From contig JABAQM010000001.1 in the NCBI GenBank assembly GCA_019187105.1, positions 2,882,734-2,946,733 of the forward strand: a stretch of DNA of 64,000 nucleotides. Reading direction: 5' to 3'. A program made the translations under genes and the position numbers. Each line of letters begins with the position of its first letter. Position 1 is the first letter of the stretch. Below, piece by piece: positions 8,379 to 23,380 of this stretch. The DNA is from Fimbriimonadaceae bacterium. Lineage in GTDB: Bacteria > Armatimonadota > Fimbriimonadia > Fimbriimonadales > Fimbriimonadaceae. Below the pieces are notes generated by a model. That model worked only from the letters and a program-made list of their open reading frames with translations, ran no database searches and was not told where the DNA came from.

Positions 8379-9557
8379 ATGAATATTCGAGCCCTTTCGT
8401 GGGTGGCCCTGGCTGCATTTGGGGTGCCGGCCTCCGCTCAGCTTTCTTCGATCGGACACAGTGGAGGCCCAACGGCTCCTGAGTTCGTAGCGAACGAGGT
8501 TCTCGTCAAGTTCCGCGCCGGTCGCGAGGCGATCGGTCGCTTGGTTTCCACCTCTTTTGGTGGCCAAGTCGTCGAGGAGCTTGCCGATCTTAAGGTCCAT
8601 CGTATCCAGCTTGCAGAAGGTACTGGCGTCATGGAGGCCGTGGCGTTTCTGGGCAGCCGACCTGAGGTTGAGTTTGCCGAGCCGAATTACATCGCCAGAG
8701 CCAGTCTCACTCCCAACGACACGTACTATGCGGGCTACCAGTGGAACATGCCCAAGATCCAAGCGAATTTGGCCTGGGACTACACGCAAGGCTCATCCAA
8801 CGTTGTGATCGCCATTATCGATACCGGCGTTCAAAGCAATCATCCCGATCTTTCCGGAAAGGTGACCGCTGGCTACAACTATGTCAGCAACAACACGAAC
8901 GCCAACGATGACAACGGGCACGGCACGCACTGCGCTGGAATCGCCGCTGCCAAGACGAATAACGCGACCGGTGTTGCCGGCGTCGGCTTTAATTGCCGGA
9001 TCATGCCGGTGAAGGTCTTGAACAGTCAAGGTTCCGGAAGCTTTTCCGCTATTGCCAACGGCATTAATTTCGCCCGAACCAACGGCGCCAAAGTTCTCTC
9101 CCTGAGTCTCGGGGGAACCAGTGGCAGCAGCACGCTCAGCACGGCGATCACCAACGCTTGGAACAGCGGATGTGTTATCGTCGCGGCCGCTGGCAATAGT
9201 GGCAACACGACGCCAAACTATCCAGCCTATTACAGCAGCTGTATAGCCGTCGGTTCGACGACGAGCACCGATACCCGATCGAGCTTCAGCAACTATGGCG
9301 CGAGCTGGGTCGATGTCGCCGCTCCCGGCAGCAGCATCGCCAGCACCTATCGAAACAGCCAGTACGTCATCATGAGCGGCACCTCGATGTCGACTCCGCA
9401 TGTGGCCGGATTGGCAGGGCTTTTGTACAGCTACCTCGGCACAGGTACTTCGAATAGTACGATTCGATCCCGCATTGAAAACAACTGCGACAACGTGGGG
9501 ACGTGGGTCGCAAAGGGACGAATCAACTGTCGCCGGGCAATAACCAATGGACCCTAG
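8379..9557 (+). CDS. Secreted subtilisin-like serine protease (S8, thermitase/fervidolysin type)
   Basis: A signal peptide (MNIRALSWVALAAFGVPASAQ) and an I9/fervidolysin-like prodomain (V-A-N-E-V-L-V-K-F ... V-E-F-A-E-P-N-Y) precede the catalytic domain. The triad reads as Asp148 in I-I-D-T-G-V, His181 in N-G-H-G-T-H-C-A-G and Ser336 in G-T-S-M-S-T-P-H-V-A-G. The Asn oxyanion residue is in A-A-A-G-N-S-G. The 392-residue length is normal and no C-terminal anchor or extra domain is present. The ribosome site AAGGAG lies 8 bases before the ATG. Likely exported and self-activated for extracellular protein breakdown. A 187-base leader region precedes it. Confidence 0.94.
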   Translation: MNIRALSWVALAAFGVPASAQLSSIGHSGGPTAPEFVANEVLVKFRAGREAIGRLVSTSFGGQVVEELADLKVHRIQLAEGTGVMEAVAFLGSRPEVEFAEPNYIARASLTPNDTYYAGYQWNMPKIQANLAWDYTQGSSNVVIAIIDTGVQSNHPDLSGKVTAGYNYVSNNTNANDDNGHGTHCAGIAAAKTNNATGVAGVGFNCRIMPVKVLNSQGSGSFSAIANGINFARTNGAKVLSLSLGGTSGSSTLSTAITNAWNSGCVIVAAAGNSGNTTPNYPAYYSSCIAVGSTTSTDTRSSFSNYGASWVDVAAPGSSIASTYRNSQYVIMSGTSMSTPHVAGLAGLLYSYLGTGTSNSTIRSRIENNCDNVGTWVAKGRINCRRAITNGP

Positions 9558-13242: not shown

Positions 13243-13839
13243 ATGGAAAAAAGGTACAGCCAAGTTCCCGATCGAAGGCTCGTTGAGCGTTGCCGATCCG
13301 GAGATCAGGATGCCTGGCATGCCTTGATCGACCGCTATCAGCGACTCGTCTATTCGGTCCCGCGACGCATGCGGCTTTCGGACGAAGATTGCGCCGACGT
13401 CTTCCAGTCGACCTGGCAAGCGCTAATCCAGTCTCTCGACCGGATCGAGTCGATCGAATCGCTTCCAAAGTGGCTGGCGGTCACGGCATCGCGCATCGCG
13501 TCACGCACGGTTCGCATTTCGGCTCGGACTGTCCAGGCTCCATCAGACGCCGGCTTGACGCTCGAGGAAGTTGTGGCCTCAGAGGAATCCTCGGCTGAAT
13601 CGAACGCCGTTGTCGCCGTGGAAGCTGAGCTGGTCCGGCAGTGTTTCCAGAGGCTTTCGACCGAGTGCCAGACATTGCTCGGCGAACTGATTGTCAAGGA
13701 CGATTCGAGCTATAAAGCCGCCACAGAGAAGCTCGGGATGCCCATGGGGGCGATTGGCCCGACCCGGCGCCGGTGCCTCGAGAAACTGAGAAAGCTGCTG
13801 ATCGAAAGCGGATTTTTTGACAGCAGTGTATCGGAATGA
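13243..13839 (+). CDS. ECF-like sigma-70 family sigma factor
   Basis: A 198-residue sigma factor. Region 2 covers about residues 10-90 (L-V-E-R-C-R-S-G-D-Q-D-A-W ... C-A-D-V-F-Q-S-T-W). Region 4 with its HTH covers about residues 130-185, although its recognition helix is degenerate (Y-K-A-A-T-E-K-L-G-M-P-M-G-A-I-G-P-T-R-R-R-C-L-E-K-L). It heads a string of four same-strand genes: a zinc-finger protein, a TPR-CHAT protease and a subtilase, with spacings of 24 bases and then overlaps. It probably autoregulates the operon, but I cannot identify its promoter. Confidence 0.88.
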   Translation: MEKRYSQVPDRRLVERCRSGDQDAWHALIDRYQRLVYSVPRRMRLSDEDCADVFQSTWQALIQSLDRIESIESLPKWLAVTASRIASRTVRISARTVQAPSDAGLTLEEVVASEESSAESNAVVAVEAELVRQCFQRLSTECQTLLGELIVKDDSSYKAATEKLGMPMGAIGPTRRRCLEKLRKLLIESGFFDSSVSE

Positions 13840-13863
13840 ATGTAGAGTCCTCTTAATACTGAA

Positions 13864-14415
13864 ATGGCTAAGACGTGCGCATCGATGGAGTCTGAGATCA
13901 TCGCGGTCGCCTTTGGCGCGGATGGTCCGGAAGTGGTACGGCACGCCGCGGCGTGTCCAAGATGTGGCCTTCTTATGTCCCAGTTTCGAAAAATCGCCGA
14001 CCGGCTTGCCGAACCCACCCACGATGCACCGGCGTCCTTGCTCAAGACGGTCAAGGCGATGGCGCTGCCAAAGGCCGTTCGACGGGCCCGCCTGTTGAGC
14101 TTGACCTTTGCCGGCTCCGGAGCGCGCTCGGCACAAGCCGATACGCTTGTTGCCGTCATCGACGCAGAAGGCTCGCAGGTGCAGCTCCTGTATCGGCAGT
14201 CCAAGGCTGGATGGGAAGTCCGGGGACGCCTTGAGAGTCCTGGCTGGACGATCGTGCGCGGAGGCAAGCGGGTTCGCCTGGATCGGGATGGCGGGTTCGT
14301 GCTGCGAACAAAGGGACTTAGCGAGACTGACTTTACGTTGCAGGGGCCTGCCGGTTCAGTGTTCGTGCCTGCTGCCGATGAGTGGACTGAGGATGACTCC
14401 CCAGGCTCTCGCTGA
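13864..14415 (+). CDS. Small zinc-finger protein, putative anti-sigma factor
   Basis: 183 residues. Near residue 27 it carries H-A-A-A-C-P-R-C-G, the HxxxCxxC zinc site of ZAS-type anti-sigma factors. No transmembrane segment is obvious, so it would be a cytosolic anti-sigma. The C-terminal ~90 residues are beta-rich (V-A-V-I-D-A-E-G-S-Q-V-Q-L-L-Y ... F-T-L-Q-G-P-A-G-S-V-F-V-P). This resembles the carboxypeptidase-regulatory-like or beta-sandwich tails next to sigma/CHAT genes, but I cannot name the fold. It lies 24 bases after the sigma gene and overlaps the CHAT gene by 23 bases. The anti-sigma role is inferred from the motif and position. Confidence 0.72.
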   Translation: MAKTCASMESEIIAVAFGADGPEVVRHAAACPRCGLLMSQFRKIADRLAEPTHDAPASLLKTVKAMALPKAVRRARLLSLTFAGSGARSAQADTLVAVIDAEGSQVQLLYRQSKAGWEVRGRLESPGWTIVRGGKRVRLDRDGGFVLRTKGLSETDFTLQGPAGSVFVPAADEWTEDDSPGSR

Positions 14416-17047
14416 GCGGATCGTTTCGGCGGAAACTCCCGACGAGGCTCTTGCAATCCTGAGATCGGAAGGTGTTGCCGGCATCTCCCAAGCCTACTTT
14501 CAGCAGGTTGCCAGCCTCCAGGGATCGAGCCCTGAAGCCGCTTCGCGTGCGGCGTCGCTGTGGCGCGCGGTCCGTGAAGGTGGAGACGAGCCGGCTTATG
14601 CATTGAGAGCGAAGGCGGTGGGCGAGCGGCTCCGCGGCCAGTGGGAAAGGAGTGCCAAGAGCTTTCTCGCGGCCGCGAGACTCGCTGACCGTGACGTGGA
14701 ACGCCTCACTTTCAAGATCGGCGCCGTTGATAGCCTCGCTCGGGCTGGACGGGTGCCGGAGGCACTTAAATTGGGGAAGTCGATTCGAAGGAGCTTGCTT
14801 GCGATGGGTGAGCCCGCCATGGCCGCGCGAGTCTCCCTCAATATTGGCAACGCTCTGCTGTGGCAGGATCGTCACAAGGAAGCCAGATTCTATCTGTCTG
14901 AGGCGATCGGTCCCCTTGGGCAAGGTGGCTTCATGGTAGAGGCCGCGTCTGCCCGCCTTGGGCTATCCACGTCGTACCTTTTTGCCGGCGACACGCGCGA
15001 GGCCCTGCAGGAAGCAGAGTCAGCGCGAAGCGAGTTCGAGCAACTGGGCATGTCGTTTCATGCCGCTATCGCCGACGTGAACATCGCGCATGCTCGAATT
15101 CTGCTCGGCGAACCGGATCAAGCCATCAATTTGCTTCTTGAAGCTGAGCCGAAACTCGCCGAATCTGTCGTTGACGGGGCGAATGTGCGCGAGTTTCTCG
15201 GTGACGCGTATGTCCGGCTGAACCTTTGGGAGGAAGCGGCAGAGAGTTTCACCCGCTCTCTGGAATGCCCGGGCCCGCTTCCAAAGGCCAATGTCGCAAA
15301 CTGCTACCTTGGCATCGGGATCGCCCGAGCGGCGTCCGGCGATCGAGCTACCGCGCTGAGGTGCCTGACTCGGGCGGGACGTCTCTACGAACAACTGGGT
15401 CTGTTCGCCTGGGCGTCATCTGTCTATTCGCAACGGGCCGAACTGGAGCGGCGGCGCGGTCGTTTTTCTGTCGCTGCGGCGCTTGCCAGTGAAGCTCTTG
15501 ACCTTTCGGACAGAGGCCGCTCGGCTTACCACCGCCTGGATGCTCTGATCGTTTCGGCTCGAACGGCGCTTGATGCCGGCCAAAATGCCCGGGAACTCAT
15601 TCGCTCGGCAAAGGAGCTTCAACGCCGAAACGCTTTTAGGGGCCACTTGTGGAAAGTGCAGTCTCTCGAGGCACTCGCCGCTCAAGGACCGGAGCGCCTT
15701 CGGCTCTTGCGTCGAGCGTATCGGTCGATTCTTCGGGACCGTGCCCGCACGACCTCGATCACGTCGCGAATGAGCTACCTTCGCGATAAGGAGGAGATTC
15801 TTCAGGAGTTCCTGCGCGTCTTGCTTCTCAATCCATCGGCGCCCAGCATTCGTGAGGCGATTCGGGTCGTTGCGAACACCCGTGCCGTTGCATTGCTCGA
15901 CGAGATTGCATCTGCCACCGCGATCCTCTCTGAACGGCAGCAAAAGGCTCTCTCCGACTTGCGGCTTGAACTTGCCGCGTCAGAACCCGAGACCATGATC
16001 GGCACTCCTTTCCGCGGCTCGGTGGCCAGCAAGATTGGTGCGGCCCAACTTCGCACTCGCTGGATCGAGACGGCCCGCAATATCGAATCGGCTGCAAGGT
16101 CGGTTCGCAAGGCACCTTCTGGCGGCTCGGTTGTCGTGGTTGAAGCCGGCAATCGATTCGTTGGCTTGCACGGGTCCGATGCAGTTCCTCTCGGGCTAAC
16201 GCCTGAGCAGCTGATGCGCGATCTGCCGTGGCTGGACTACGAGATTCTCGGTCCGGCAAAAGGCTCGCCCTCCGTCGCAACCTGCGCCTTAAACCGACTT
16301 GCCGCAGGGGCCCTGAAGAACTGGGACCCGAGATGGCCGTCCAACCTGTGCCTGACCGGCAGCTTGTGGAATCTCCCTTGGGCGTTTATGTTCGATGCGG
16401 CCTCGTTCGACGAGGAGCCCGTGTATTGCCTGCACCCGTCAGCTCAACTCCCAACGCAGTCGCTCACGGACCTCAAGAGGAAGCCCGCCGCTCTATGGAT
16501 CAGTCGTGAGCCAGGGATTGCCATGACGTCGGCCGAAGAAGCCTTCCTGAGAGCTCAGTTTCCACAGCTGCGCGTGATCGATAGCGCGCGCGAAGCGCGT
16601 CGCTCGCTGGATTCGGCAGATCTCGGCCTTCTCCATGTTGCTGCACATGCCAGGCACAACCCCGAGAATCAGATGTTTTCCCACGTTGAGTTCACCGACG
16701 GCAGAATCTACGCCACGGAGATCGCCCGAAGTGGGGTGCGGTGTGATCTCGCGGTTCTGTCGGCCTGTGAAACCGCAAAGATGTCCGCCCATCATGCCGC
16801 GGAGCCGACCGGGCTCGTCAGAGCCTTTCTTGCTCGAGGATGCCGTGCGGCGATCGGGAGCCAATGGCAGCTTGACGACGAAGCTGCCGCTGTGATGAGT
16901 GCGAGTTTTTACCAGGCCCTTTTGCAAGGTGCCGAGATCACTGAGAGTCTGCGGGGAGCCAGGCGAAAAGTTAAAGCTTGGAAGCCGCACGTATACTATT
17001 GGGGAGCCTTTGCGTTGTTCGCAGGCTATCCCCGGGAGAGGCCATGA
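14393..17047 (+). CDS. TPR-CHAT caspase-like protease
   Basis: An 884-residue cytosolic protein. About residues 1-560 are tetratricopeptide-type helical repeats (for example M-A-A-R-V-S-L-N-I-G-N-A-L-L and A-I-A-D-V-N-I-A-H-A-R). The C-terminal ~300 residues form a CHAT domain, a clan CD cysteine peptidase. The probable dyad is His752 in L-L-H-V-A-A-H-A and Cys792 in V-L-S-A-C-E-T, and the fold ends with the hallmark Y-Y-W-G-A-F-A-L-F. Both residues are present, so it is probably active. ATG 14393 has GAGGATG context and overlaps the zinc-finger gene; the long upstream open frame to 14108 is a shadow of that gene. It overlaps the next subtilase start by 4 bases (ATGA). Confidence 0.88.
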   Translation: MTPQALAERIVSAETPDEALAILRSEGVAGISQAYFQQVASLQGSSPEAASRAASLWRAVREGGDEPAYALRAKAVGERLRGQWERSAKSFLAAARLADRDVERLTFKIGAVDSLARAGRVPEALKLGKSIRRSLLAMGEPAMAARVSLNIGNALLWQDRHKEARFYLSEAIGPLGQGGFMVEAASARLGLSTSYLFAGDTREALQEAESARSEFEQLGMSFHAAIADVNIAHARILLGEPDQAINLLLEAEPKLAESVVDGANVREFLGDAYVRLNLWEEAAESFTRSLECPGPLPKANVANCYLGIGIARAASGDRATALRCLTRAGRLYEQLGLFAWASSVYSQRAELERRRGRFSVAAALASEALDLSDRGRSAYHRLDALIVSARTALDAGQNARELIRSAKELQRRNAFRGHLWKVQSLEALAAQGPERLRLLRRAYRSILRDRARTTSITSRMSYLRDKEEILQEFLRVLLLNPSAPSIREAIRVVANTRAVALLDEIASATAILSERQQKALSDLRLELAASEPETMIGTPFRGSVASKIGAAQLRTRWIETARNIESAARSVRKAPSGGSVVVVEAGNRFVGLHGSDAVPLGLTPEQLMRDLPWLDYEILGPAKGSPSVATCALNRLAAGALKNWDPRWPSNLCLTGSLWNLPWAFMFDAASFDEEPVYCLHPSAQLPTQSLTDLKRKPAALWISREPGIAMTSAEEAFLRAQFPQLRVIDSAREARRSLDSADLGLLHVAAHARHNPENQMFSHVEFTDGRIYATEIARSGVRCDLAVLSACETAKMSAHHAAEPTGLVRAFLARGCRAAIGSQWQLDDEAAAVMSASFYQALLQGAEITESLRGARRKVKAWKPHVYYWGAFALFAGYPRERP

Positions 17048-18273
17048 TGAAGTTCCGTTCCATTTGTTGTTCCTGTCTTCTGGCGGTGTCGGCTGCAGCA
17101 TTAGCCCAAATTTCATTCAGTCAACCCAAGACCCTACCCACCCCAAGGTTCATTTGCCGGCTCAAGGATGGCGCCGATGTGTTTCGCATCGCTCGTACCT
17201 ATCGGCTTTCATTGGTCGATCGAACTCAGAACGCGCCGTTTGCGCTTTTTCAGCCTAAGTTCACCGGAGACCACCATCCGGTCCAGGAACAAATGCGACT
17301 GGATCCAGAGATTCTGTGGGTCGAAGATGACGCCGTTATCGACACCCCCGAGGGACAAGCGGCCAAGGGAGGCACCATTGCCGCCGTCGGCGGAATAGAT
17401 GGCCTGTACGAAATGAACGATGGCTTCTTGAATCAGATCAATTGGAGCGAGGCTCTGGCCAACGCTGCGGGCCGCAATGTCACGGTTGCCGTGTTGGATA
17501 CGGGTCTGTCTCCCCATCAAGTGGAGCTCTGGACCAGGGTTGTGGTGTCAGCGAACTTTGTGGAGAAGGGCAGCCAAGCCTATGACCTTCCGTACGGAAC
17601 GGACTCCAATGCCAACGGCTTCCTGGACGAGGGCGCGGGTCACGGGACGATGGTTGCCGGCTTGCTTAGCATTCTCGCCCCCAGGGTCGACCTTGCGATC
17701 GCACGCATAGCCGACAGCGACGGGCACTCTTCCGCGTGGCTGGTTGTGAAGGGACTTGCGTTTGCGGTGAACTCCGGTGCGGAAGTTGCCAACATCAGCC
17801 TCGGGTCTATTCCACAGATCGTGGCGCTTTCTGACACCATGAATTGGTGTGAAGAGAAGAACCTTCTCGTCGTTGCTCCCGTGGGGAACGACGACGCTGA
17901 TCGAGCCCGGTACCCAGCCCGTATCGGCAAGGTGGTGGCCATCGCCGGGCTCTTGCCTGACGACACGAAAGCGCCTTTTAGCAACTGGGATGGCTCGACA
18001 GACTCTTGCGCCCCTGCTACGGGACTGGTCGGTCCCTGGTGGGATGACGAGTACTACGCCATTTGGTCCGGCACTTCCTTTGCCTCGCCAATGGCTGCAG
18101 CCGGGATTGCCAATGCCCTGCGCCGTACCACGCCAAAAGATGCCGGGGACCTGGAAGATGCCTTGCGAACCTCTGGCCAGAACATCAACCACCTGAACCT
18201 TCCCTACGCGGATCAGCTGGGAACCAAGTTGGACTTCGTTAATCTCGACCTTGCTATTCGGTCATTGAACTGA
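17044..18273 (+). CDS. Secreted subtilisin-like protease linked to the CHAT operon
   Basis: 409 residues. The signal peptide is M-M-K-F-R-S-I-C-C-S-C-L-L-A-V-S-A-A-A-L-A, followed by a short prodomain and an S8 domain. The triad is Asp152 in V-A-V-L-D-T-G-L, His200 in G-A-G-H-G-T-M-V-A-G and Ser345 in S-G-T-S-F-A-S-P-M-A. The oxyanion Asn is in V-A-P-V-G-N-D-D. The start at ATG 17044 overlaps the CHAT stop by 4 bases with GGGAGAGG upstream, so it is translationally coupled to the CHAT protease. An exported protease fixed to a cytosolic caspase-like protease and a sigma factor is unusual. It may be the output of the switch. Confidence 0.92.
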   Translation: MMKFRSICCSCLLAVSAAALAQISFSQPKTLPTPRFICRLKDGADVFRIARTYRLSLVDRTQNAPFALFQPKFTGDHHPVQEQMRLDPEILWVEDDAVIDTPEGQAAKGGTIAAVGGIDGLYEMNDGFLNQINWSEALANAAGRNVTVAVLDTGLSPHQVELWTRVVVSANFVEKGSQAYDLPYGTDSNANGFLDEGAGHGTMVAGLLSILAPRVDLAIARIADSDGHSSAWLVVKGLAFAVNSGAEVANISLGSIPQIVALSDTMNWCEEKNLLVVAPVGNDDADRARYPARIGKVVAIAGLLPDDTKAPFSNWDGSTDSCAPATGLVGPWWDDEYYAIWSGTSFASPMAAAGIANALRRTTPKDAGDLEDALRTSGQNINHLNLPYADQLGTKLDFVNLDLAIRSLN

Positions 18274-18386: not shown

Positions 18387-19976
18387 ATGAAAACCAGACC
18401 AACTTGCGCACACATTGCGCTTTCGATCGTGATGGCAACCGCCATCGTCGGTTCGGCAAAGGCCGATGTTCAGATGTCCGAGGCCGTTCTGCTTGGAACC
18501 GGACCCCAACCCTCTGGTGTAGCCGCTGGAGACTTCAATCGGGACGGGTTTGCAGACTTGGCGGTTACCGTCGATGCACCTGACCGGGTCCAGATCTATT
18601 TCGGAAACGGTACGGGCTACGGTGCGGCCGTAAACTACCAGGTAGGTTCCGGAGTCGGTGCAGGATCGATCATCGCCTCCGATGTTGATGGCGACCTTGA
18701 CGCCGACCTGCTCGTCGCGCTACAAAACTCGGCTTCGGTTCGGGTGCTTACCAACAATGGAGCCGGCGTGTTTGCGCTGGGGCAACTTGTCGCGACCGGC
18801 AGCAATCCCCGAAGTCTGGCACAAGGCAACTTCGGCGGTTCAGGCCTGAATGACTATGTATCGGTGAACCGCGACAGTAACTCGGTTACCGTGCTGATGA
18901 ACTCTGCCGGCACCCTATCCGCGGCATCGGTTGCGGTCGGAACCGACCCTAGAGCGGCTGCCATCGCGGACATTGACCGCGACGGTGACCTTGACTTGGC
19001 GGTAACGAACAGTGATGATCGCAACGTCCAGGTACTCCTCAACAACGGCGCTGGTACCTTTGTATCGGGCGGCACGTTTGGCGTTCACTTCGGTGAAAAG
19101 GCATCCGGAATTGCTGCTGGCGACCTTGACGGTGACAATGACGCCGATTTGATGGTTTCGTTCGATCGCAACGGCACCACCGGCATGCTGGGCGTGATGC
19201 TGAACAACGGCACCGGCGGCTACTCGAATGCAGGCAGCTTTCTCACGGGTGGTCAGAATCCGGACCAAATCGTTCTTGCCGACCTCGATGGCGATGGGCG
19301 ACTTGATGCCATTGTGAACAACCAGGACACTGGAACGGTTGCATTCCTTCCGGGGCTCGGTGGAGCAACCTTTGGGGCAGCGATTGTACGCAATTCCGGT
19401 GCGGATCCCACGGGCGTTACCGGTGCAGATCTCGATGGCGATGGCGATATCGACATTGCCGTTCCGAATCGTAGCTCCAACAACGTCGCTCTGTTCGAGA
19501 ACCTCGCTCCAGCTGCGTTCCAGTTCTTTGGACCGGGATCGTTCACGTTGGTTCGCGGTCGCCAGGTCTCCGGAGATCTCGGCTCGCTCCAGACCAGCGA
19601 TGACAGCAGTCTGGTCGTGTCGATCGGTCTCGTCCTGAACGGCGCCGAAGCCCCTGTGCAAGTGCGGCTGGACGGTACCGCTCCAACCGCAACTCCGAAC
19701 GAATTGCGATTCAAAATCGAATCCAAGGGATCGCTCACCGGAATCAGCCAGCAGGTCCAGCTGTTCAACTGGCAGACCAACGCTTATGAGACGCTCGACA
19801 CCCGCACAATCGGGACCCTTGACGGCATTGTCGAAGTCAGCGTTCCGACCAACGCAGCTCGATTCGTCCAGCAGGGAACCAACGCGGTTCGCGCCCTGGC
19901 CAAGTACAAGGTGAACTCGCCGAGCTTCTCAGCGTGGAGCATCTCGATTGACCTGGCTCAGTGGTCTTCGCGCTAA
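18387..19976 (+). CDS. Secreted FG-GAP/VCBS seven-bladed propeller protein with shared C-terminal module
   Basis: 529 residues. After a signal peptide (ending G-S-A-K-A-D-V-Q), residues ~30-375 hold seven FG-GAP-type repeats. Six carry the calcium-binding D-x-[DN]-x-D-G/x-x-x-D signature (for example D-F-N-R-D-G-F-A-D, D-L-D-G-D-G-D-I-D). The third (N-F-G-G-S-G-L-N-D) is degenerate. This matches a closed seven-bladed integrin-like propeller. Residues ~380-529 are a beta-rich module containing R-G-R-Q-V-S-G-D-L-G-S-L and L-D-T-R-T-I-G. That module recurs in the sugar dehydrogenase at 45125-46819. AAGGAGAAG precedes the ATG, and a terminator follows. Role probably adhesion or surface binding; no enzyme motif seen. 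Confidence 0.88.
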   Translation: MKTRPTCAHIALSIVMATAIVGSAKADVQMSEAVLLGTGPQPSGVAAGDFNRDGFADLAVTVDAPDRVQIYFGNGTGYGAAVNYQVGSGVGAGSIIASDVDGDLDADLLVALQNSASVRVLTNNGAGVFALGQLVATGSNPRSLAQGNFGGSGLNDYVSVNRDSNSVTVLMNSAGTLSAASVAVGTDPRAAAIADIDRDGDLDLAVTNSDDRNVQVLLNNGAGTFVSGGTFGVHFGEKASGIAAGDLDGDNDADLMVSFDRNGTTGMLGVMLNNGTGGYSNAGSFLTGGQNPDQIVLADLDGDGRLDAIVNNQDTGTVAFLPGLGGATFGAAIVRNSGADPTGVTGADLDGDGDIDIAVPNRSSNNVALFENLAPAAFQFFGPGSFTLVRGRQVSGDLGSLQTSDDSSLVVSIGLVLNGAEAPVQVRLDGTAPTATPNELRFKIESKGSLTGISQQVQLFNWQTNAYETLDTRTIGTLDGIVEVSVPTNAARFVQQGTNAVRALAKYKVNSPSFSAWSISIDLAQWSSR

Positions 19977-22552: not shown

Positions 22553-23380
22553 TTAAGGGACGAACTCAGTCTCTGGCTTCCGGGCTTTGAAGGCCCTGAA
22601 GTCGCTGCTGCGGATGTTGTTCCAAGTCCGGACAGAGGCGCTGCCATCGACAAACACGTAGTGGCCCTTGTTACGATGGCCAGGGGTGGGCTTGCCGTTG
22701 TACCAGCTGGCGCAGCCCGGAGGTCCCTGATCGGCCGCCCCCTGTGCCGGCACGTTTCGCCCGGCGAGTTTGCACGTGTCGCAGTTGATGAAGCCGGAAC
22801 CCCAGATGCCGCCGACGTACTGGTCGTCCACGCTGATCGACCACTGTTCGACCCATGCCACGGTGTTGCTTGGCTGATCGAACTCCGAGTTCTTGCGTCC
22901 AGCCATGTCCCAGTTGCCAGGGCCCACTTTCTTGTAGACACCGGTATTGGTGTCCCTGCCGCCGGCCTCGACCGTGTTGATTTCACCCACGTAGGCGTAG
23001 CTGCGGTAGAGCGCCTTCTTTTTGTAGTTGCCGTCCCACCACGGGACGCTATCCACATGTTGCCGTTTGTTATTGTCGCTCGGGCATTTCCAGATCTGGT
23101 CGCTCTTCACGTATGGCATCAGCTGCATGTCGGGCGGCAGATAGTCCGTATTTCCGCCGTTGATCGGAGGCGTTCGCGCCGCCCACGCCGGCAAGACGTC
23201 GTTCGAGTCTCCCGCATACATCGCTGTTGCAACGCCCACCTGCCGCAGGTTGCTCAGACAGGTGGATTGCCGGGCCGACTCCTTGGCTTGGGCGAATACT
23301 GGGAACAAAATAGCAGCCAGAATGGCGATGATGGCGATGACCACCAACAGTTCAATAAGCGTGAACGCCCGGCTCTTCAT
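22553..23380 (-). CDS. Type II pseudopilin-like protein, DUF1559-type
   Basis: 275 residues. It begins with a class III signal [29 protein letters not shown]. Prepilin peptidase cuts before Phe and the Glu at mature position 5 is conserved. The [14 protein letters not shown] helix and a globular, Trp- and Gly-rich domain follow, ending in a W-x-N-I-R-x-x-D-F region. This architecture is strongly expanded in Armatimonadota and Planctomycetota; function unknown. It lies 25 bases upstream of the beta-helix gene, though that gene has its own -10. TATAGT stands 9 bases before the ATG. Confidence 0.9.

Follow-up and report, generated by a model that had tools for sequence, protein, structure and literature searches.

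A candidate proteolytic transcription switch encoded by genes for an ECF σ factor, a two-domain small protein and a TPR-CHAT protease

A gene set found in several bacterial phyla may encode a transcription switch that works by proteolysis. Its core of three genes specifies an ECF σ factor, a probable anti-σ factor and a caspase-like TPR-CHAT protease, and an S8 subtilase gene is commonly attached to it. From sequence comparisons and structure predictions, we assign a probability of about 0.6 to the full course of events proposed below for this system. The set was analyzed in a window (the whole stretch of DNA under study) of 64,000 nt from Fimbriimonadaceae bacterium (GCA_019187105.1, JABAQM010000001.1), and all coordinates are those of the window.

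The locus and the conservation of its gene set

The genes of the locus, and the sites within them that are discussed below, are as follows.

13243-13839, + strand: ECF σ factor gene (198 aa; Sigma70_r2, TIGR02937)
13864-14415, + strand: gene for the small, probable anti-σ protein (zinc-finger; 183 aa; ZAS-like helical domain at about residues 1-66, beta domain at about 72-172)
13942-13965, + strand: HxxxCxxC site of the small protein, H27/C31/C34 (direct reading)
14119-14130, + strand: predicted CHAT cut site of the small protein, G86-A87-R88|S89 (invariance of the Arg; low-pLDDT loop)
14393-17047, + strand: gene for the TPR-CHAT caspase-like protease (884 aa; Pfam CHAT, TPR)
16646-16648, + strand: codon of CHAT catalytic H752 (kept in 80/80 loci)
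16766-16768, + strand: codon of CHAT catalytic C792 (kept in 80/80 loci)
16877-16879, + strand: codon of CHAT D829 (79/79 ungapped loci; common to separases in alignments, not to Csx29)
17044-18273, + strand: S8 subtilase gene (409 aa; Pfam Peptidase_S8; signal-type N-terminus and upstream propeptide-like region)

The four genes lie on one strand, with a gap of 24 bases between the σ and small-protein genes, an overlap of 23 bases between the small-protein and CHAT genes and an overlap of 4 bases (ATGA) between the CHAT and S8 genes, which reproduces to the base the arrangement described in an earlier sequence-only reading of this DNA. The HxxxCxxC site, the His752/Cys792 pair of the CHAT protein and the intact S8 triad (D152/H200/S345, together with N282) reported in that reading were likewise found. 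Upstream, on the opposite strand, are genes that were assigned by reading their translations to a seryl-tRNA synthetase and a UbiD-like decarboxylase, and the gene downstream of the operon encodes an FG-GAP repeat protein. Elsewhere in the window, 22553-23380 encodes a protein that resembles pseudopilins of type II secretion and has a prepilin motif at its N-terminus.

Assignment of the first gene product as a σ factor is based on matches to Pfam Sigma70_r2 (5e-08) and TIGR02937 (1.2e-17 over residues 23-186) that include both the σ2 and σ4 regions, and on profile matches to SigW, SigH and RpoE in the PDB; the window σ scores 269 bits, versus 73 for the next σ of this genome. A common promoter upstream of the σ genes was considered and set aside: a weak dyad, AGAG-N18-(TG)ATAC, was seen in 8 of 26 loci from Armatimonadota, L041 and L173 among them (maximum of 5 in shuffles), and may be a housekeeping extended -10 element.

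The four-gene neighbourhood noted in the sequence-only reading is conserved in related genomes. When 61 genomes were searched with the CHAT protein, 12 full-length relatives, at 30-39% identity, and a truncated one were recovered. Ten of the orthologous loci found in this way are untruncated; in these and in the window, 11 in all, σ, small protein, CHAT and S8 are encoded in the same order. Among the orthologs of the order, identity to the window proteins is 32-48% for σ, 28-36% for CHAT, 32-48% for S8 and 15-30% for the small protein, and the CHAT His/Cys pair and S8 triad are invariant. A scan of bacterial genomes from six named phyla that used S8 only returned 80 loci; profiles of the three partner families then placed all three near the subtilase in 52 of these, and many of the remaining loci end at contig ends. 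Related sets occur in Armatimonadota, Planctomycetota, Acidobacteriota, Actinomycetota, Zixibacteria and Eisenbacteria, with a gene order that differs between phyla and with some loci that lack S8 or CHAT. At L033 and L034, the σ gene lies directly behind a transketolase-like gene (with a 4-base overlap in L033).

None of 20 lower-scoring S8 genes of the same phylum has a CHAT or small-protein gene within ~6 kb, and none of 16 loci of other CHAT proteins from related genomes has an S8 gene or a confident small-protein gene, the nearest approach at the latter being two sub-threshold matches to the small-protein profile (24 and 28 bits) and four weak, divergent σ matches. Because the set is kept in 11 of 11 orthologous loci and is missing from these control S8 and CHAT loci, its conservation is not a matter of chance.

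Since the first scan began with S8, the test was run again with the small protein as its starting point. Three phyla, sampled at 149 genomes each, yielded 37 small-protein loci, with an adjoining σ gene in 34, CHAT in 30, S8 in 24 and all of these in 21; therefore, the constant core consists of σ, small protein and CHAT. Only 6, 10 and 11 of the 149 genomes in the respective samples encode this protein; broad as its range is, the module is thus sparsely distributed. Seven copies of the small protein (L260, L266, L267, L269-L271 and L273), most of them with their own σ and CHAT genes, are carried by a single genome, G722, from the Acidobacteriota sample. In addition, the distances in the four protein trees of 80 complete loci correlate with one another (Mantel r 0.64-0.85, with 0 of 300 shuffles as high); agreement is strongest between small protein and CHAT (r 0.85), and shared species history contributes to these values.

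The small protein and its invariant arginine

The product of the second gene is probably an anti-σ factor, as judged from comparisons of its sequence. No Pfam family is found in the window protein, and its relatives have sub-threshold matches to zf-HC2 at the N-terminus and to CarboxypepD_reg at the C-terminus; the small proteins of all the phyla listed above form one family. A profile of the N-terminal half recalls 12 other proteins in three genomes, and 10 of these 12 are encoded directly behind a σ gene on the same strand, which favours an anti-σ-type domain in this half. An AF2 model of the protein (pLDDT 88.3) has four helices followed by a beta domain, with no membrane segment. Foldseek gave no confident match to this model; the best rows of a second look at its fold are Ig-like beta domains with Z scores of about 5, so that these fold searches place the beta domain weakly and bear little on the helical half.

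The zinc site is not a constant feature of this family. Of 80 loci, 35 keep its ligands, which are absent in Actinomycetota and have been lost in 6 of the 13 orthologs of the order. Sensing of zinc or of redox state (the latter named for ZAS anti-σ factors in the sequence-only reading) by way of HxxxCxxC is therefore not how the family works in general. Along with the zinc site, the anti-σ helices are missing in Actinomycetota, where the N-terminal helices are shortened, and in some Armatimonadota, so σ binding in these proteins must use another part.

The absence of the zinc site and anti-σ helices from Actinomycetota loci would also fit a system in which CHAT or the subtilase degrades σ itself, and so keeps it inactive, with no true anti-σ factor; such proteolytic control has been proposed for ECF54 σ factors, which have similar neighbours (PMC8999054, section 3.3). 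We regard this explanation as unlikely, however, on account of a small protein that is encoded in nearly all module loci, has an N-terminal half akin to anti-σ domains, contains the invariant arginine described below and has a tree that fits best with that of CHAT, not that of σ.

The most conserved residue of the small protein is R88. In an alignment of 134 small proteins, which form 86 clusters at 40% identity, an equivalent of R88 was present in 133, and the sole exception is a marginal match outside the module; an earlier set gave 97 of 97, and the mean pairwise identity of those first 97 sequences is 19%. The next best columns of the alignment reach 93%, and among module proteins this Arg is never replaced, even by lysine. 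This positional test depends on the alignment, and its outcome did not change when the sequences were aligned without a profile. The surrounding motif is G-[AV]-R-[GS], with G or A two residues before the Arg, V or A immediately before it and G or S after it. In the model, strands 76-83 and 94-101 flank R88, which falls in a block (residues 81-90) whose mean pLDDT of 66 is the lowest in the protein except for the C-terminal tail. An invariant Arg in a flexible loop of small residues, encoded beside the gene for a clan CD protease, has the look of a protease site. R88 could also be a structural or docking residue, and a few Zixibacteria members have a proline after the Arg (GVRPA), which is unusual for cleavage and speaks against a cut at exactly this position in those proteins.

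The protease, the proposed switch and its outputs

The third gene product is recognized by Pfam as a CHAT protein (1.9e-25) with TPR repeats (TPR_12, 6.6e-10). The closest solved structure to its AF2 model (pLDDT 85.7) is that of Csx29 (8eey; Z 25.5, rmsd 10.1 over 503), to which the CHAT domain is also similar in sequence (E 2.6e-11), and other neighbours of this fold include separases (Z about 22), DdvA (8rot; Z 17.8 over 595 residues) and gingipain R (Z about 17). The segment from the catalytic Cys to D829, an Asp at +37, aligns without gaps to separases, and Csx29 lacks this Asp. By analogy with separases, D829 might be the Asp of an S1 pocket that binds a P1 Arg, an assignment that was set aside; it is retained as a common feature only. 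Separases and gingipain R cut after arginine, and to our knowledge Csx29 is not a precedent for Arg specificity. Because these related proteases cleave after arginine, a basic P1 residue is plausible for the CHAT protein as well.

The strict invariance of R88 would fit a fixed contact as well as a cut. For example, the small protein might inhibit or dock on CHAT, with R88 as a pseudo-substrate or anchor, and σ might be freed by a conformational change, as the proline that follows the Arg in a few members could be taken to indicate. This arrangement seems improbable to us, since the His and Cys of CHAT are kept in 80 of 80 loci, which needs a substrate, and since Csx29, the nearest solved fold, cuts its anti-σ partner.

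The reading that we prefer is one in which the small protein is the substrate. In a resting cell, this two-domain protein would hold σ. CHAT would be activated by a signal, for which the TPR repeats, the beta domain or a partner might be the sensor, and would then cut the small protein after R88, in the loop where the beta domain begins. The resulting fragments would release σ or undergo degradation, and freed σ would be predicted to transcribe its own operon plus nearby genes for secreted proteins, including the subtilase. The latter would act outside the cytoplasm in diderms and inside it in Actinomycetota, where it has no signal peptide. What was observed is the conservation of the gene set, the intact catalytic residues, the kinships in anti-σ domain and CHAT fold and the invariant Arg; σ binding, cleavage, the cleavage site, release and the regulon are what we infer. 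The suggestion in the sequence-only reading that CHAT could cut the zinc-finger protein and free σ gains support from the anti-σ kinship of the small protein, its invariant Arg and the predicted Csx29- and separase-like fold of the protease; two lesser points of that reading, zinc or redox control and a fixed secreted output, do not hold generally.

The S8 protein of the window matches Pfam Peptidase_S8 (4.6e-24), and its catalytic residues are highly conserved (H200, N282 and S345 in 80/80, D152 in 77/77). A signal-type N-terminus is found here and in most diderm loci, but in 0 of 14 Actinomycetota loci, so this subtilase is not always secreted; with S8 in 24 of 37 small-protein loci, it is not a fixed part of the module either. 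We read the subtilase as the commonest output and as an optional one. Outside the module, at 8379-9557 of the window, is a gene for another S8 subtilase, whose prodomain is of the fervidolysin type and which scores 123 bits, versus 571 for the module S8.

Genes for secreted proteins recur around the module. FG-GAP repeat secreted proteins, a possible σ target, are encoded next to it in the window (18387-19976) and at two other loci (L040:4110-5681 and L124:3895-5151). A family of small secreted proteins (~126 aa where not extended) adjoins it in six loci (L038:5714-6094, L042:2438-2818, L039, L172, L174 and L183), with a gene that is divergent from σ where this was checked (L038 and L042). The modules without S8 at L270 and L271 adjoin genes for TadE/TadG-like pilus and surface proteins.

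These surroundings also bear on a possible role of the locus in defence or cell death, in which CHAT and the subtilase would act as toxic effectors and σ and the small protein would do no more than regulate their expression. CHAT and subtilase domains are found in known defence systems, PADLOC returned a subtilase match, though a generic one (1.6e-06) and nothing beyond it, and DdvA, a TPR-CHAT anti-σ factor, belongs with DdvS, the controller of a defence island in Myxococcus. A defence role is nevertheless very unlikely in our judgment: the genes around the module are ordinary ones for housekeeping functions or secreted proteins, no defence genes were seen to recur among them, and S8 has a signal peptide in most diderm loci.

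Comparison with known systems

A published description of a similar neighbourhood is that of ECF54 σ factors, which were listed in a 2022 review as neighboured by a carboxypeptidase, a subtilase and a CHAT protein, and without an anti-σ factor (PMC8999054). The Actinomycetota loci, which carry genes for S8, σ, a CarboxypepD_reg-like small protein and CHAT, resemble ECF54 by described neighbourhood; in the window, CHAT and the subtilase are recognized by Pfam, and the CarboxypepD_reg match is sub-threshold and found in relatives, not in the window protein itself. Because the Actinomycetota loci fit this published description, the neighbourhood as such is not new, and the view that the set had gone undescribed has to be modified to that extent. 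In the open literature that was searched, we did not find the 'carboxypeptidase' treated as an anti-σ family, the invariant Arg, the spread to other phyla or the optional nature of the subtilase. The ECF54 'carboxypeptidase' is probably a member of this anti-σ family, with a non-enzymatic beta domain and, in other phyla, a ZAS domain.

Like ZAS anti-σ factors (RsiW, ChrR and RshA), the small protein of the window has a helical domain with HxxxCxxC and is the product of a gene that directly follows that of an ECF σ, and its profile matches RsiW (5wuq_C, E 0.0016 in the PDB). Unlike these proteins, it has an optional zinc site, a beta domain with an invariant Arg and a protease gene next door. 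The CHAT protein shares its fold and the gapless match from Cys to Asp +37 with separases and clan CD Arg proteases, and differs from them in its TPR arm, its place in a bacterial operon and an Arg specificity that is at most predicted.

A link between anti-σ factors and CHAT proteins is also known from Myxococcus xanthus, where DdvS controls a CBASS/CRISPR island and DdvA is reported to be a transmembrane anti-σ factor that carries TPR-CHAT (8rot). On this account, the two functions are fused elsewhere in nature. The window system differs from DdvS/DdvA in having separate soluble genes, a small protein without a membrane segment and, in addition, a subtilase.

Bacterial CHAT proteases are widespread, and few have a known substrate; the system described here offers a candidate substrate, a cut site predicted to one residue, a partner and an output, and would turn a little-studied σ group into a concrete signalling pathway. 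If this reading is true, switching of transcription by caspase-like proteolysis of an anti-σ factor is a general mechanism, not one peculiar to CRISPR, which would bear on the origin of CRISPR-associated proteases.

In type III-E CRISPR systems, Csx29 cuts Csx30, an inhibitor of CASP-σ, and σ is thereby relieved. Like CASP/Craspase, the window has a TPR-CHAT protease, with Csx29 as its nearest fold, encoded together with an ECF-type σ and a probable inhibitor. Here, however, no Cas7-11 (gRAMP) gene is recognized among the ORFs neighbouring the operon, an S8 subtilase is added, D829 is common to separases and not to Csx29, and the small protein, 183 aa with ZAS and beta domains, has no detected similarity to Csx30, which it did not match in sequence or fold searches of the PDB. 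The module would thus work like the type III-E switch without being a member of type III-E, and looks like a CRISPR-free relative of it. We consider it an even bet that these loci represent a widespread, CRISPR-independent, caspase-gated σ switch with a two-domain anti-σ factor that is cut at an invariant Arg, with the type III-E switch and DdvA as particular forms of this general mechanism and the ECF54 'carboxypeptidase' as a misread substrate.
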